The position numbers and the translations under genes are program-made. DNA of 58,772 nucleotides from Planctomycetaceae bacterium (GTDB taxonomy: Bacteria > Planctomycetota > Planctomycetia > Planctomycetales > Planctomycetaceae): NCBI GenBank assembly GCA_021732995.1, contig JAKFWA010000037.1, positions 1 through 58,772 of the forward strand, in the 5' to 3' direction. Under the pieces are notes generated by a model. The model was given only the letters and a program-made list of their open reading frames with translations, did not search any database and was not told where the DNA came from. This document shows positions 2,101-47,030 of the stretch, one piece after another. Position 1 is the stretch's first letter. Each line of letters opens with the position of its first letter.

Positions 2101-2436
2101 ATGTACCGCTACCGAGTTCGCCCCGAGTACGGTTCCGGAAAGCTCTTGATTGAACTGCTCCCCGCGTCCGCAGATGAAGCCTTCTTTGGTGAACTGCTCG
2201 AAGTACTCAAGCAGGTGAATGCCAGGATGACAGATGTCTGCGACCTCTGGGTGAATGCTGAAGTGCTGCTCAGCTTCGACAGCGATCTGGGCTCGTTCCT
2301 GGTGTCGAAGGACGTCTGGGACTCGGTCTTCATTATGGCGTCCGAAAACCAGCCCGTGGTACTCAAGATTGCCGACGCGCTTGGAACATATAGTCAGTTC
2401 CAGCGCGAGGTTGTCGACTTCAGCGAATACACTTGA
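2101..2436 (+). CDS. Hypothetical protein (111 aa)
   Basis: I do not recognise a family. The protein is small, acidic and soluble-looking, with no signal peptide or membrane segment. The start is supported by an AGGAAG ribosome binding site about nine bases upstream. It follows leuS by 30 bases on the same strand and may be co-transcribed with it. The mixed alpha/beta pattern (for example VVLKIADALGTYSQF near the C-terminus) fits a compact single domain. No function is proposed. Confidence 0.7.
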   Translation: MYRYRVRPEYGSGKLLIELLPASADEAFFGELLEVLKQVNARMTDVCDLWVNAEVLLSFDSDLGSFLVSKDVWDSVFIMASENQPVVLKIADALGTYSQFQREVVDFSEYT

Positions 2437-2708
2437 GCAGAGCCGACTTCCCCCCAAGAGTCATTTTGACTTTTTGTTCACTGACTACTGGACTGCTCGA
2501 CCAATCTAGTGTCAATTGGTTCATTGGATTCGGCTCACCGCACCGAGGGCATTCTTTTTAAAACGCTTGAATGAACACTCTTGTGAACGTTTTGTCATGC
2601 GTTTTACGCGGAAATTGGCGGAAATTACTTCCGACATGATAGTCATGTGCGACCTAGGTTTGGGCTGCCGTCGTCCGTCCAAATTCTGCTCTTGCTGTTC
2701 GAGCTCAC
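2437..2708. promoter_or_regulatory. AT-rich upstream region with a dyad
   Basis: This gap precedes the signalling operon and is visibly more AT-rich than its surroundings. It contains a perfect dyad ACATGA-TAG-TCATGT at 2634-2648, about 60 bases before the HD-GYP gene, which could be a regulator site. I see no convincing sigma-70 promoter and no gene. The dyad is seen directly; its role is a guess. Confidence 0.3.
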
Positions 2709-3881
2709 ATGCAATCAACGGAATCTGTACAGCCTATCTCTATCGACGCCCAGTCGGTCGTTGCCGACCTCAATCTGGCTTCCAATAAAGAGAGAGCCAC
2801 GATTCTGGTGGTCGACGATGAAGCCGTGAACCTGCGGCTGATCGAATTGCTCCTGAAAGAGGATGGCTATCAGGACATCATTCTCTGCCCCCAACCCGAA
2901 CGGGTACTGGCAGTGGTTGAGCAACATCAGCCAGATACCGTATTGCTCGACGTGATGATGCCGCAGATCAGCGGGCTTGATCTGCTGGCAGCTCTGCGCG
3001 GGAATACCGCGACCCGTCACGTGCCGGTGATTATGCTCACCGCGATGACGGATCGAAAAACGAAGTCGCAGGCTCTTGAACTGGGAGCGACCGACTTTCT
3101 GACGAAGCCCGTAGACTCCAGTGATCTGCTGACGCGAGTCCGCAATGCACTGGTGATGCAGGCTCACCATCTGAACCTGGTCAGTCAGGCGGCTCTGCTC
3201 GAAATGAAGGTTCGTGAGCGCACGGCGCAACTGACCTGGACGCAGATTCAAATCATCCTGTGCCTCGGCCGGGCCGGCGAGCGTCGCGACTATGAGACTG
3301 GTCAGCACGCCGTTCGCGTCGGTCGTTATGCACAGATCCTCGCACAGGAGATCGGCCAGAGCCGCCAATGGTGTGATGAGCTTCTACTGGCCGCCATGCT
3401 GCATGACGTCGGCAAGATTGGCATTCCCGATGCGGTTCTGCTGAAGCCAGGCAAGCTGACCACAGACGAATACCAGCAGATGCAGGCTCACTGTTCCTTC
3501 GGCGAGGAAATCATCCGCCCCACGTGGCGAGATGACCTGCTGTCCTTCCTGCAGTTGGACATTCCCGGCATTGATACTCAGTCATCACTGCTGCAACTGG
3601 CGGCGTCTATTGCGTCTACTCACCACGAAAAATGGGACGGCAGCGGCTATCCGCGTCGTCTGAAAGGTGAAGAGATCCCGCTGGAAGGACGACTCACAGC
3701 GATTGCGGACGTCTTTGACGCCCTGGGCAGCGCGAGACCCTACAAGGCTGCCATGCCACCCGACGAGTGTCGCAGGACTATATCCGATGGATCCGGAAAG
3801 CACTTTGATCCGACGCTGATCGAGGCTTTTCTCAACCGTTTCGACGACATACAGCGCGTCCGCGAACAGCTTTGTGACTAA
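2709..3881 (+). CDS. Response regulator with HD-GYP domain (RpfG-like)
   Basis: A two-domain cytoplasmic signalling protein expected to hydrolyse cyclic-di-GMP when phosphorylated. Residues 30-145 are a receiver domain with the acidic pocket D36/D37, phospho-acceptor D81 (LLDVMMP), T111 and K133 (TKP). A short helical linker leads into an HD-GYP domain (about 185-385) with HD at 232-233 (HDVGKIGIPD), HHEKWDGSGYP at 305-315 and an intact GYP triad at 313-315. All key residues are present, so it should be an active phosphodiesterase. Its stop lies immediately before the start of the RedB-like gene, and the hybrid kinase follows, so the three genes form one operon. The kinase is the likely phosphodonor, but this is inference. 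Confidence 0.9.
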   Translation: MQSTESVQPISIDAQSVVADLNLASNKERATILVVDDEAVNLRLIELLLKEDGYQDIILCPQPERVLAVVEQHQPDTVLLDVMMPQISGLDLLAALRGNTATRHVPVIMLTAMTDRKTKSQALELGATDFLTKPVDSSDLLTRVRNALVMQAHHLNLVSQAALLEMKVRERTAQLTWTQIQIILCLGRAGERRDYETGQHAVRVGRYAQILAQEIGQSRQWCDELLLAAMLHDVGKIGIPDAVLLKPGKLTTDEYQQMQAHCSFGEEIIRPTWRDDLLSFLQLDIPGIDTQSSLLQLAASIASTHHEKWDGSGYPRRLKGEEIPLEGRLTAIADVFDALGSARPYKAAMPPDECRRTISDGSGKHFDPTLIEAFLNRFDDIQRVREQLCD

Positions 3882-3894
3882 AGGCCAGAGGATC

Positions 3895-4503
3895 ATGTCG
3901 CGTACGACCTGTATTATATCACTCGCCTGCTGGTGTTTGCTGGTAGGCTGCGGCTGCGCCTGGGCATTCATGTATCAAATGACACCCAGCCCGCAATATA
4001 CACCACCGGCTGTTTGGCCCAGCGAGTGTGCCCTCACCGATAAACACACACAACCAACGCTGCTGGTTTTTGTGCATCCGAAATGCCCGTGTACGCGCGC
4101 GACATTCCGCCAACTGGAACGCTTCCTGACGCGCCATCAGCAGAAGTTACAGATCTATGTAGTGATCTCGAAGCCGGCATCGGCTCCGATTGATTGGGAA
4201 CACACAGATCTGTTGGCATCAGCGAAAGCCCTGCCGGATGCCTGCGTCATCATTGATGATCAAGACGAAATCCGGAGCTGTTTTCAAGCCTCAACATCTG
4301 GAGAGATCCTGCTCTACGGAGTTGACGGACGTTTGCAGTTTCAAGGTGGAATCACACCGGGTCGAGGCCATGAAGGCGCTAATCCTGGCGAAGCAATTCT
4401 GGCCGCGTTGCTGAAGCAAGAAACTCCTGATCTTCAAACCACACACGTCTTCGGCTGTGGTTTAGAGACCAAGAAATCCTGTTGCGAAGGGGCACGCCGA
4501 TGA
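3895..4503 (+). CDS. RedB-like thioredoxin-fold membrane protein
   Basis: The N-terminus carries one hydrophobic segment (about residues 8-26) that is a signal anchor or signal peptide, followed by a thioredoxin-like domain facing the periplasm. The active-site motif is FVHPKCPCT, with C64-P-C66 instead of the usual CXXC, as in RedB-type proteins. The conserved tail GRGHEG (about residue 155) and FGCGL followed by a further Cys pair near the C-terminus also fit that family. The start chosen (3895) has AGAGG just upstream; an ATG at 3874 overlaps the previous gene but has no better site. It ends in an ATGA overlap with the hybrid kinase, implying translational coupling. A redox partner or sensor role for the kinase is inference. 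Confidence 0.75.
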   Translation: MSRTTCIISLACWCLLVGCGCAWAFMYQMTPSPQYTPPAVWPSECALTDKHTQPTLLVFVHPKCPCTRATFRQLERFLTRHQQKLQIYVVISKPASAPIDWEHTDLLASAKALPDACVIIDDQDEIRSCFQASTSGEILLYGVDGRLQFQGGITPGRGHEGANPGEAILAALLKQETPDLQTTHVFGCGLETKKSCCEGARR

Positions 4504-42791: not shown

Positions 42792-42862
42792 GCGGGTGTA
42801 GTTCAATGGTAGAACGAAAGCTTCCCAAGCTTTAGGCGAGGGTCCGATTCCCTTCACCCGCT
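42792..42862 (+). tRNA. tRNA-Gly (anticodon CCC)
   Basis: A complete cloverleaf: acceptor GCGGGTG/CACCCGC, D-arm GTTC...GAAC, anticodon stem AAAGC/GCTTT with loop TTCCCAA (anticodon CCC) and T-arm with GGTCCGATTCC. CCA is not encoded. It decodes GGG. Confidence 0.92.
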
Positions 42863-42867
42863 CTTTC

Positions 42868-43075: not shown

Positions 43076-43540
43076 TCAGGCGGCGACGAACTTGTCGCCT
43101 TCGACCTGGCGGGCGTTGCCCATGATGACCATAGTTTGCAGCAACTCTTCGATGCGGTCGGCTTTGGCTTTGGTGAAGCGTTTGGCCATGTCGGCGGCGG
43201 TGACGGGGTGGCTCGATGACGCCAGTTGATGACGAATCGCGAGCACCTGGTCGGGCAGCTTGTCGGGGAGCGGCAGTTTCTTGGCCTTCTCTTTTGTCGC
43301 GGCCTTCTTCGTGGGTGCTTCCGGTTCGGCTTCGTCGCCTGCGGGTTCTGCGATGGCGAGTTGCGTTTGAGTGGCTCGACCGGAGGCGGGGTTCTGGAAC
43401 TCCGGACGCAACCAGCGGATGAGCCCGCGTTCTTCTTCGGCTGCGCGTTCGGCATTCAGAGCGACCAACCGTTCAAGAATCTCTTCGTCGGTCAACGTGA
43501 CCGGCCAGCCGTAGGCTTCAAACACGGCGGCATCGATCAT
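43076..43540 (-). pseudogene. C-terminal remnant of an MmeI-like type IIG enzyme
   Basis: About 154 residues beginning IDAAVFEAYGWPVTLTDEE, which match the conserved C-terminal end of MmeI-like (type IIL/IIG) enzymes. A stop codon lies directly before the first ATG, so homology starts exactly at the junction. The N-terminal half of the same kind of enzyme lies at 45490-46734 on the same strand, with a complete restriction-modification module between them. The rest (low complexity, Lys/Ala-rich 75-95) continues the tail. Not expected to be functional alone. Confidence 0.7.
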
Positions 43541-43546
43541 CTATGC

Positions 43547-43581
43547 TAAACCCAATTTGGGCTAATCCCAATTTGGGTTTA
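43547..43581. promoter_or_regulatory. Paired CCCAATTTGGG operators (C-box-like)
   Basis: Two identical 11-bp palindromes CCCAATTTGGG (43551-43561 and 43567-43577) with flanks TAAA and TTTA making an overall dyad. They lie 14-41 bases before the Xre start. This is the layout of controller-protein binding boxes in type II restriction-modification systems: the regulator would bind here to autoregulate itself and the overlapping endonuclease gene. The sequence is seen; the role is inference. Confidence 0.65.
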
Positions 43582-43591
43582 ATCTTGAGCG

Positions 43592-43834
43592 ATGACCGAA
43601 TCTGTTCACACAAATCGCTATCGTCGGTTTAGGGAATTGCTCACGGCCGCTCGGCTGGACCACGGCCTGACACAGGAAGCACTCGCGAAGAGACTGGGCT
43701 GTATTCAGACGTATGTCAGCAAATACGAGCGCGGCGAGCGCCGTCTGGATGTAGTCGAGTTCCTGGATGTCGCAACGGCTTTAGAGCTTGATCCGGTGAA
43801 AGTCATTCGAAGGATGCAAGCCACGGATGACTAA
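43592..43834 (+). CDS. Xre-family regulator (C-protein-like)
   Basis: An 80-residue helix-turn-helix protein (LTQEALAKRLGCIQTYVSKYERGERRL, about 28-54). It is the size of restriction-modification controller proteins and its end overlaps the endonuclease gene by eight bases. The paired palindromes upstream are probable binding sites. Confidence 0.8.
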   Translation: MTESVHTNRYRRFRELLTAARLDHGLTQEALAKRLGCIQTYVSKYERGERRLDVVEFLDVATALELDPVKVIRRMQATDD

Positions 43835-44591
43835 GGACTCTAAGCTTCTAGCGTCACGCATTGCAGCATTGTCTCAAGGCCAGCGTGCTCTGCTTGTCAC
43901 CATGATTGACATGTTCGAGCATCCCATTGAGTGCTATCGAGATCCCACTTCGGACATCGTAACCACTGACTTCCTGACCACATTTGGAGACATTCTCAAG
44001 CTGCACCACAGTCTGTCGGATGACTATCTAGATAAGTATCGATTCGAGGTTGCGATGCAGCGGGTCTATGGAGCATTAGGACATGAAGCTGTTCGGCCAA
44101 GTCGTTGCCATCCTGGGCATGACCTGACAGTTGACGGAACCAAGTGGTCACTCAAGACGCAGGGCGACGCCAATATCAAGAGGGACGTGCTTCACATCTC
44201 CAAGTTCATGGAGTTGGGGCGAGGCAAGTGGGAGAATGAAGACGACTTGCAAGGGCTGCGAGATCGCTTCCTCAATCACCTCATTGCCTACGACCGTATA
44301 CTTCAACTTCGGTATTTCTTGACTACTCGCAACGATGCTTCTCGGCATTTTTATGAACTCGTGGAGATCCCCAAGAGCCTTTTGTATGAGGCTCAAGGTG
44401 GCGTGTTCAAGATGATGCTGAATAGCAGGCAGTCGCCTAAGCCGGGATACTGCACGATCACTGACGCTGATGGCATGGTGCGTTTTCGGCTTTACTTCGA
44501 CGGTGGCACAGAGCGAAAACTTCAAATCAAAGGCCTGCGCAAAGATCTTTGTAAAGTTCATGCGACATGGGAATTCAAGAAGTCCACTTGA
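43827..44591 (+). CDS. Type II restriction endonuclease (PD-(D/E)XK-like)
   Basis: A 254-residue protein with no close family I can name. A likely PD-(D/E)XK core is seen at D99 (GHDLTVDG) and S108-L-K110, followed by a conserved-looking ISKFMELGRGKW. The position, between a controller-like gene and a DNA methyltransferase, strongly suggests a restriction endonuclease. Its start overlaps the Xre gene and its end overlaps the convergent methyltransferase gene by 17 bases. The recognition site is unknown. Confidence 0.7.
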   Translation: MTKDSKLLASRIAALSQGQRALLVTMIDMFEHPIECYRDPTSDIVTTDFLTTFGDILKLHHSLSDDYLDKYRFEVAMQRVYGALGHEAVRPSRCHPGHDLTVDGTKWSLKTQGDANIKRDVLHISKFMELGRGKWENEDDLQGLRDRFLNHLIAYDRILQLRYFLTTRNDASRHFYELVEIPKSLLYEAQGGVFKMMLNSRQSPKPGYCTITDADGMVRFRLYFDGGTERKLQIKGLRKDLCKVHATWEFKKST

Positions 44592-45465
44592 GCCGTCGCT
44601 CAGCAATGTCGACATATTCCGGGTTCAACTCAATTCCAACGAACTCGCGTCCGAACATTTGGCAGACTTCTCCTACAGTTCCCGACCCAAAAAATGGATC
44701 TAACACCATTGCTCCTTCCGTTGTGCCGGCGAGCAAGCAGCGAGTCACCAACTCGCGGGGAAATGTTGCGAAGTGTGCTTCGCGAAATGGTTCGGTGTTG
44801 ATAGTCCAAACGGATCGACAGTTTCGCTTGCTTCCATTAACTGCTTGTTCCTTTACAGCCTCGTGCTGATAGTCATATCGCTCGGATTTGGAGAGCAGGA
44901 AGACGTACTCGTGAACTCGCGACGGACGGTCTTTGACTGACTCTGGAAGCCCGTTGTTCTTGTGCCAAACAATGTCGGATCGCAAATACCAACCGTCGGC
45001 TTGAAGAGCGAACGCTAGTCGCCACGGGACACCAATTAGATCCTTTGGTTTGAGCCCCTCTGGCGTTGGTGCGCGATAGTCCATGCCGCGCGCTGGATTC
45101 TTCTTATCTTCGTCCCTCCACGTCCTGCCCCCGCTCGTGTAACTATCTCCAATGTTAAGCCACAATGTCCCATTGTCGGCAAGCGCACGTCTAACCTCAC
45201 GGAAGATCGCAACGAGGTCGCTAATATAATCGTCGAGCTTGGGTTCGGCTCCAATTTGGCCGCGGATGCCGTAGTCCCTTAATCCCCAATAAGGTGGACT
45301 GGTGATACAGCTTTGAAAGATCCCGGCCTCAAGCTTCGCAAGTTCTTGCCGCGCGTCCCCGGTGATGATTCGGCCGCCCCTTGATCCGGGCTCTACCACG
45401 TGAGTTGTCGATTCCTTCTGATCAAGTTCAGGAAAGAGTTGTCGCGGCATCGGGGTGAACTCCAT
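44575..45465 (-). CDS. Type II DNA methyltransferase (N4-cytosine or N6-adenine)
   Basis: A 296-residue beta-class methyltransferase. Catalytic motif TSPPYWGLRDYG (55-66) and the AdoMet-binding DPFFGSG (256-262) near the C-terminus. SPPY points to N4-cytosine methylation, but N6-adenine cannot be excluded. It would protect host DNA against the neighbouring endonuclease. A site resembling the controller operators lies 24 bases upstream. Alternative start 45450. Confidence 0.88.
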   Translation of the reverse strand: MEFTPMPRQLFPELDQKESTTHVVEPGSRGGRIITGDARQELAKLEAGIFQSCITSPPYWGLRDYGIRGQIGAEPKLDDYISDLVAIFREVRRALADNGTLWLNIGDSYTSGGRTWRDEDKKNPARGMDYRAPTPEGLKPKDLIGVPWRLAFALQADGWYLRSDIVWHKNNGLPESVKDRPSRVHEYVFLLSKSERYDYQHEAVKEQAVNGSKRNCRSVWTINTEPFREAHFATFPRELVTRCLLAGTTEGAMVLDPFFGSGTVGEVCQMFGREFVGIELNPEYVDIAERRLKWTS

Positions 45466-45488
45466 CTAACTCGCCGAGCTTCTTGTAG

Positions 45489-45499
45489 CCTAAGTTGGG
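45489..45499. promoter_or_regulatory. Degenerate controller operator upstream of methyltransferase
   Basis: CCTAAGTTGGG (45489-45499) differs from CCCAATTTGGG at two positions and lies 24 bases before the methyltransferase start on the minus strand. It may let the regulator control the methyltransferase, or it may be a relic of the insertion boundary. Confidence 0.35.
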
Positions 45500-46734
45500 T
45501 TGATCCTAGCCGGACCTCGTGAAACATTCCACTTGCTTTTCGTTGCTGCAACCACGGTGGTGTGAACTGCCTCCCATTCCTCACGCAATGGCTCGATGAC
45601 GGTCGGCATCACCAGCCGCTCGACATAGGCTCGCGGCGTGTAGTGGGCTCCGAGCTTGTGGCGTTCAATCGGGTCCAGGGCGCGTTCCAGCAGCGTGCCG
45701 AAGATGGCGGGTTCGACTTCACGCCAGTTGGCTTTGCTGGCTTCGATGAGCAGTGCGAGTTGTTCCTCAGTCAGCGGCAAGGCTTCGCAGTCCTCAAACA
45801 AACCGCCGTTGAAGCGTCGCAGCTTCTTCCGCAGGATCGGCGAGAACGTGCCCTGATCCATCGCTTCCCACAACGCCCGTACCATGTCGGGAAAGTTGTG
45901 AACCTCGCCCTTCAGGCTGTGGAGCAACTCGGTGAAGCTGCCCAGCGGGATGAGTTCGACATCCTCGGCGAACATGGTGAAGAGACACCGCATCAGGAAC
46001 TGAGCCACACGCCCCGCCGCGAGCTGAGAACCTTCCAGCGACTTCGCCAGCCGCGCCAGCTTGTCCGCCAGTTCCCGAGTGACCTTCGCACTGCGGCGGC
46101 TGGGGTCGAGTGAGAGCGGCTCGGTCCAGACGTGTTTCAGCTTCTGGCGCTGTTCCGCGTCCGCGAGCTTGTCCATCGAAATGCGGAAGCTGCCAGGGTC
46201 AGGGAACGGCAGATAGGTCTTGCCCGACCGTGTGAAGTCCGCGAACAACTCAATGGAATGCCCGACATCCACCACAATCAGAAACGGCGGCCAGCCTTCG
46301 TCGGTCGGCAACGCGCGGGCGTACTGCTCAGCCTGCCCGCGAGCTTTGACCATCGCATCGTCCCAACTCTTGGTCCCGCGAACGGCGGTGCCCTTCTTGG
46401 TCTTCTTCGGCTTGTCAGAGAGTTGGAACTCATCCTTCGGCGCGGCCTGTTCGCTGCCCTGCTTGGCTTCAAGCACAAAGCAGCCGCGCTTGTAGAGGTC
46501 GATCCGACCGATGCTGGTGGTGCCGTCCAGATTCTGAAACGTGACATCCCGCTCGAAGACGTAGGCATTCTCCGCCACGTTGGCCTTCGTCGGCTCCGGC
46601 TTCGCAACGCCGATCAGCTCACACAGCTCCGTCAGGAACAGTTGATAATTTGCCCGCTCCGCAGCCTCCGAAGCTGACCAGCGAGCCACGAACGAAGCCA
46701 CGACTTCAGCAGAGACATCGACGGGAGCATTCAC
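45490..46734 (-). pseudogene. N-terminal remnant of an MmeI-like type IIG enzyme
   Basis: Matches the N-terminal half of MmeI-like restriction-methyltransferases: a PD-(D/E)XK nuclease with D and ExK ([17 protein letters not shown]111, E121, K123 in the frame counted from 46830), and the linker [15 protein letters not shown] directly before the methyltransferase core. Homology ends near 45560; the last about 24 residues are unrelated. The GTG at 46734 (VNAPVDVS) is the family-like start; the frame remains open to 46830. The core methyltransferase and target-recognition region is missing, and the C-terminal end reappears at 43076-43540. Confidence 0.72.
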
Positions 46735-46826
46735 AGCGGCGGCATCCTCAATGGTTAAGTTCAAGAGGGTGCCAAGTGTATCGGTAGTTTCCGAGACGGC
46801 GAACGTGCGCGGTCGTTGTCGAGGCG

Positions 46827-47030
46827 TCACTTGCGAACGTTTCTTAGCAACCGTCGAACGAATTCCGCCTTCTCGGAATCGGTTGGCGGAAGCGTCCCAG
46901 AATCGAGAGCAGCAGCGAAACTTGGTGCGACCGGCCAGCGAAGGAGTTTGATGTCACCACGGCGATCTCGATGAGTCTCAGCCGTCTTGATCTTGCCCGC
47001 TCGTTTGAAGTTGCCTGGGGCCGTTCCCAT
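46827..47030 (-). CDS. Small hypothetical protein upstream of type IIG remnant
   Basis: A 67-residue basic ORF (end [16 protein letters not shown]) whose stop overlaps a GTG start at 46830 for the type IIG frame. The overlap suggests coupling, but no family is recognised and it may be spurious. Confidence 0.3.

Follow-up and report, generated by a model that had tools for sequence, protein, structure and literature searches.

Restriction-modification (R-M) modules reportedly enter chromosomes by insertion accompanied by substitution or by target duplication, as Furuta, Abe and Kobayashi are said to have described in 2010. The locus considered here resembles those cases in that an R-M module occupies a chromosomal locus in which resident DNA has been lost or changed; it differs in that a single gene family is affected repeatedly, by both R-M and non-R-M modules, and with a shared edge. 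In Streptococcus suis, R-M, abortive infection (Abi), and clustered regularly interspaced short palindromic repeat (CRISPR) systems alternate in a variable defence locus between rpiA and trmE (PMC5398294), and a mobile R-M system that silences another endonuclease has been described (PMC8989522). A single chain of MmeI, a type IIL/IIG enzyme, combines nuclease, spacer, methyltransferase, target recognition domain (TRD), and C-terminal helical bundle (PMC4833311). The stretch analyzed (the window) comprises 58,772 nucleotides of a Planctomycetaceae bacterium (contig JAKFWA010000037.1, assembly GCA_021732995.1) and is one contig of a 9.4-Mb genome. Judged by alignment with intact homologs, the middle of an MmeI-like type IIG gene in this window is replaced, rather than merely interrupted, by an R-M module of ~2.0 kb.

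A single PADLOC type IIG model, PDLC03627 (1136 positions), matches both pieces of the broken gene, which lie on the minus strand: the N-terminal remnant (45490-46830, with homology to ~46750) at model positions 4-387 (E = 5.7e-168) and the 154-residue C-terminal remnant (43076-43540) at 994-1135 (E = 3.4e-40). Against the intact 1228-residue homolog of genome G002, the N-terminal remnant aligns with residues 67-468 and the C-terminal remnant with 1078-1228, in collinear order; ~610 residues (about 469-1077 of the G002 protein), comprising the methyltransferase core and recognition domain, are absent from the locus. This lost segment is present in the intact homologs G002 and L120, the latter being the best intact match of both pieces among those compared (78.6% amino acid identity for the N-terminal and 51.2% for the C-terminal piece). 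Pfam profiles identify the nuclease and helical spacer of an MmeI-like enzyme in the N-terminal remnant (MmeI_N, E = 5.1e-29; MmeI_hel, E = 9.4e-18), the translation of which contains a D-x9-ExK motif, presumably that of the nuclease, followed by the spacer and the start of the methyltransferase domain; its final residues (below about 45537) are non-type IIG sequence. The C-terminal region of the enzyme is present as the separate fragment 43076-43540, which has no Pfam or NCBIfam match at E 0.001. In contrast to MmeI (PMC4833311), the chain encoded by the window gene lacks both a gamma-class methyltransferase core and a TRD, and a full-length type IIG query at E 1e-12 retrieved nothing from the window's genome beyond the two remnants. 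Since the methyltransferase core and recognition domain have been replaced, the type IIG enzyme is presumably inactive, and the new module would supply restriction instead.

The C-terminal remnant opens at a conserved position (..LDAAVFEAYGWP), and an in-frame TAG immediately precedes its ATG (right-hand junction, 43537-43543), while at the left-hand junction (45530-45566) homology extends to 45566 in DNA and to about 45537 in protein. These results agree with a sequence-only reading of the locus, which had proposed two remnants of one MmeI-like enzyme with its middle replaced, a C-terminal piece starting at a conserved position after a stop, and an N-terminal piece bounded at 46734, close to the limit found. 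Neither of the outcomes that it had named beforehand as contrary, pieces of different families or non-collinear pieces, was observed. The only same-genus genome searched for an empty site, G001, has no type IIG match, and the neighboring genes lie on different contigs there. At 42792-42863, ~210 bp away from the C-terminal remnant, lies a tRNA-Gly (ccc) gene, and genomic islands commonly enter at genes of this kind.

Between the remnants lie three genes. An 80-residue helix-turn-helix (HTH) controller (C; 43592-43834, plus strand; HTH_3, E = 3.3e-11; PADLOC Control_protein PDLC03664, E = 7.5e-10) overlaps by 8 bp a 254-residue SmaI-family type II endonuclease (R; 43827-44591, plus strand; PF17411 positions 1-240 of 240, E = 1.8e-72; PDLC03562, E = 5.8e-72), the end of which is overlapped by 17 bp by a convergent 296-residue N6_N4-family DNA methyltransferase (M; 44575-45465, minus strand; PF01555, E = 4.2e-50; PDLC03387, E = 4.9e-124). 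The full-length endonuclease domain and the adjoining methyltransferase place the module among SmaI-family R-M systems, the two enzymes being putatively cognate. The GC content of C, R, and M is 0.55, 0.50, and 0.535, compared with 0.62 in the remnants, and at third codon positions it is 0.60, 0.57, and 0.56, compared with 0.73-0.77. Both the completeness of the module and the more AT-rich composition of the insert had been anticipated from the sequence.

A SmaI-family module with the same gene order and overlaps of 8 and 12 bp occurs at 2142-3954 of a 4380-bp Klebsiella plasmid (L072, NZ_AP021958.1), its R and M proteins being 42% and 61% identical to those of the window; related modules therefore exist on plasmids. 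This plasmid has a ColRNAI-type replicon, and its SmaI-family endonuclease is annotated merely as "hypothetical". The SmaI family was found in 7 plasmid records and in 2 of 392 genomes of the phylum, namely the window's own and one more distant case (43 bits); no close relatives were found in the genome collection or viral contigs, and none in phages. Avoidance of CCCGGG was considered as support for SmaI specificity and rejected: the window alone has 2 such sites compared with 11.5 expected, but the whole genome has 705, and the reversed control GGGCCC is even rarer (576), so avoidance is not specific.

The arrangement of the module resembles that of Esp1396I, in which two operators precede C/R and one precedes M, and in which the controller also represses M (PMC4041747). 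In the window, C and R are likewise convergent with M, two identical CCCAATTTGGG palindromes upstream of C/R (43551-43561 and 43567-43577) are putative operators OL and OR, and a single operator-like site (CCTAAGTTGGG; 45489-45499), differing from the C/R sites at 2 of 11 positions, lies upstream of M. Of 5000 75-bp stretches drawn at random from the window, 1.3% contain an equally good match to the C/R sites. By eye, a 12-bp word upstream of C on the Klebsiella plasmid reappears in inverted orientation upstream of M. The window module differs from Esp1396I in its SmaI-family enzymes and operator sequence (PMC4041747), and its regulation is read by analogy: it is likely expressed in a similar manner, with the controller acting on two C/R operators and one M operator so that methylation would come first and restriction later.

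The replacement in the window is not isolated. Fifteen two-sided loci, the window included, contain collinear type IIG ends flanking unrelated small cargo; 12 of them, with the window, belong to a first subfamily and three (G043, G524, G583) to a second, and their hosts are members of Acidobacteria, Anaerolineae, Verrucomicrobiaceae, and the window's class (probably planctomycetes). Where the sequence-only reading had seen a single trace of defence-system turnover, replacement of the same kind thus occurs at 14 further loci, with unrelated cargo and a mostly similar right breakpoint. Nine of the 15 cargoes have strong defence profiles (six type II R-M systems, GmrSD, AbiL/RloAB, and PDC-M38), three have weak or toxin-antitoxin-like ones (G679, G763, G524), and three have no identification (G008, G747, G043). 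Within the first subfamily, R-M cargo besides that of the window comprises an m5C methyltransferase, DUF4928 endonuclease, and Vsr (G002b), a BsuBI/PstI system (G574), a BglII-type system (L172, Anaerolineae), and type II systems in L135 (Acidobacteria) and L185 (Verrucomicrobiaceae). The remaining first-subfamily cargoes are PDC-M38AB (G765), AbiL/RloAB (G780, the C-terminal piece of which is cut by a contig end), a metallo-beta-lactamase-fold protein with two unknowns (G679; PDC-M48B, 2.5e-13; LmuA, 1.2e-11), a ParA-like protein with two unknowns (G008), an HTH protein with a weak PD-T4-9_C match (G763), and two small unknowns (G747). In the second subfamily, G583 carries GmrSD, G524 an HTH and PIN_10 pair resembling a toxin-antitoxin system, and G043 two unknowns. 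The long open frame of L123/G763 suggested an intact gene, a reading rejected because stops in the DNA at 1020 and 2373 split it.

Genome G002 contains one intact type IIG copy and one broken copy (G002b), the C-terminal piece of which is 95% identical to the intact gene. A 128-bp stretch downstream of the two copies (L044 7052-7179 and L023 2240-2367) is 87.5% identical, the copies being ~3.6 Mb apart. One-sided loci were kept outside the count of 15: G632 (HaeII R-M), G534 (Eco57I/TaqI_C), G506 (SIR2-like), G496 (PLD-like), G612 (unknown), and G018 (dCTP deaminase-like, at a contig end). In L029 (579-1217), a gene resembling dCTP deaminase (PF22769, E = 3.8e-34) adjoins an N-terminal type IIG remnant at a contig end. 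At L144 the C-terminal piece stands alone, with no N-terminal piece in the 5.4 kb upstream, where a 574-residue gene has an FtsK-like match below the cut-off. Cargo in the same slot with a weak defence profile or none is found in L106 (5665-8251), L045 (4683-6770), L047 (5075-6146), and L107 (7510-8387), and these are candidate unknown defence modules.

The two edges of the replacement behave differently. First-subfamily breakpoints were placed in the numbering of the 1228-residue G002 protein and tested in 11 of the 12 loci, G780 being left out owing to its contig-cut C-terminal piece. The left edge is variable, with N-terminal pieces ending between 131 and 585, whereas the right edge is narrow, with C-terminal pieces starting between 963 and 1078; so tight a distribution never arose when uniform right edges were simulated in 20000 sets. 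L135 was entered at 963, although its endonuclease frame runs on to 7984, so that its start lies near 1020. At the DNA level, the C-terminal pieces of 10 of the 12 loci start within about 1005-1034 (the positions in G780 and L135 being estimated by eye), the others being G574 (1055) and the window (1078), and the right edges of all 12 span ~80 residues. In the second subfamily, the break falls at 821-845 of G626 in G632, G524, G506, and G043 (the first and third of these being one-sided), which corresponds to about 997-1021 in G002 when converted through paired coordinates; the C-terminal pieces of G534, G583, and G612 start later (868-926 of G626), outside the shared edge. The TRD of MmeI extends to 825, and the C-terminal helical bundle comes next (PMC4833311). 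Placed by order along the protein, the corresponding boundary would lie near the right edge, which in 14 of the 15 loci falls at it or up to about 75 residues past it, with G583 as the exception. Exact edges are available where a close intact relative exists, that is, for G002b (95% amino acid identity) and G524 (95.7%). The lengths of lost and gained DNA gave a Spearman coefficient of 0.56 (P = 0.07, n = 11), and no correlation is claimed.

Split genes were also counted in wider samples. Among the best 80 of 540 relatives in a genome scan for type IIG genes, 61 are intact, 8 are partial (all at contig ends), 4 retain just the C-terminal end (in 3 cases at the end of a contig), and 7 are split, six with cargo (three of them the loci G574, G763, and G765) and one as a bare deletion. 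By our reading of the matches listed, the 170 genomes of the window's family contain 8 split type IIG loci and about 10 that are intact or truncated at a contig end. On viral contigs, 16 of 21 type IIG loci are intact and five are partial or C-terminal only. Members of this type IIG family that retain their entire middle were seen on contigs classed as viral (L204-L213).

As an explanation of the whole, we favor, with moderate confidence, the view that a SmaI-family module replaced the middle of the type IIG gene, as one of 15 such cases, through recombination anchored in the conserved ends, and that it is expressed in the manner of Esp1396I. Incoming DNA carrying another defence module would recombine through the conserved ends of the gene, the C-terminal block foremost, and the middle would be swapped for the incoming module. 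The N- and C-terminal pieces share the same best intact homolog in 7 of the 9 split loci that yielded a match for each piece (exceptions G008 and G763), which indicates that the middle was lost from a single gene. In G524, the 99 codons beside the cargo show an identity of 0.88-0.93 to the intact counterpart in a genome of the same genus, and the C-terminal piece one of 0.94-0.96; among the four outer N-terminal windows, three have values of 0.58, 0.68, and 0.71. Intact controls show no rise in identity next to the G524 break point, and beyond the gene no further blastn match between the two genomes was found at E 1e-5 in about 19 kb. A pattern of this kind could result from exchange through homologous arms.

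Several observations weigh against this explanation. The mosaic signal comes from G524 alone, and its fourth outer window (0.90) contradicts it. In the stretches aligned by blastn, the DNA identity between type IIG ends of different loci is mostly ~67-85%, which is low for ordinary RecA recombination between distant hosts. G583 starts its C-terminal piece later than the shared edge, no donor with cargo between type IIG ends was found, and none of the 21 viral loci is split on both sides, three C-terminal-only ones (L215, L216, L222) being judged by match alone. Within 60 bp around both junctions of 12 loci, the words shared do not exceed 8 bp in direct or 9 bp in inverted orientation, and the functions and expression of these loci are read from their genes. 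A near-fixed right and variable left edge would, moreover, fit one-sided homology-anchored recombination as well as directed insertion followed by leftward deletion. In the latter case, a mobile element or recombinase would target the start of the C-terminal block, and deletion of variable extent would follow; many C-terminal starts do lie in or just before the DNA encoding HRKRQQ..HP.LT.T, as judged by eye. Nevertheless, no shared terminal sequence, repeat, or target duplication was found near the junctions of the 12 loci, no integrase or transposase family occurs among the cargo genes scanned, and we regard directed insertion as improbable.

Ordinary defence-island turnover, in which illegitimate recombination and deletion strike any dispensable gene and the type IIG gene has no special role, is a somewhat stronger rival that we still regard as unlikely. 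Defence genes are described as clustering and replacing one another at shared loci (PMC5398294, PMC12707154), and cargo-less deletions were also seen, in L175 and, with weak N-terminal matches, in G079. Turnover of this kind fits poorly with a right edge that, in the first subfamily and most second-subfamily cases, varies only within a short section of the gene, and in the same 170 genomes HsdR showed no comparable pair: among the matches listed, no two pieces on one contig were separated by more than 1 kb, the widest gap (~0.8 kb) lying inside one open frame. The same held over 397 genomes of the class, where the matches listed reach less far. The control is useful but has limits, since the weakest matches fall outside those listed, the model spans only 674 HsdR positions, and cargo beside lone short pieces (e.g., in G042, G006, and G636) would have escaped it; these limits again tell against the recombination route. 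Retention of the remnants for a continuing function, for example an N-terminal nuclease or C-terminal domain acting with the cargo, appears very improbable. The N-terminal remnant of the window does keep 94 of 94 highly conserved columns (defined from 65 intact sequences, among which certain genes are represented twice), C-terminal remnants have no internal stop in the matched stretch in 10 of 12 loci (those with a match), and that of G002b differs from the intact copy by a nonsynonymous divergence (dN) of 0.020 and a synonymous divergence (dS) of 0.188. However, this dN/dS ratio may predate the split, the N-terminal remnants of G002b, G747b, and G780 are eroded or frameshifted, and the C-terminal remnant of the window keeps 24 of 26 conserved columns, a broken fraction (2 of 26) reached by only 6% of the intact genes compared. 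The orientation of the cargo is mixed among loci, which argues against remnants driving its expression.

Replacement of part of one R-M system by another is an event already known. A recurrent slot with a near-fixed edge in one gene family seems new as far as the titles and abstract openings surveyed in the open-licence PMC literature show, none of which mentions defence modules nested repeatedly in type IIG genes. The S. suis locus shares with the present one the alternation of different defence systems at one place, but the neighbors there are rpiA and trmE (PMC5398294), whereas here the ends of a broken restriction gene would serve as anchors.

It is still an open question by what routes compact defence modules travel and displace each other, and the window locus would be a case in which the arrival of one restriction system in the gene of another inactivated the latter. 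It is conceivable, although we put this forward tentatively, that type IIG families form a general slot for the exchange of defence systems across phyla, with their conserved ends as arms and the C-terminal block as a near-fixed anchor. If so, type IIG loci could be used to discover unknown defence systems, for example in the cargo of G679, G008, G747, and G043. A gene family that brackets many unrelated defence modules would provide a simple search rule for new ones, and the proposed recombination route would be directly testable.

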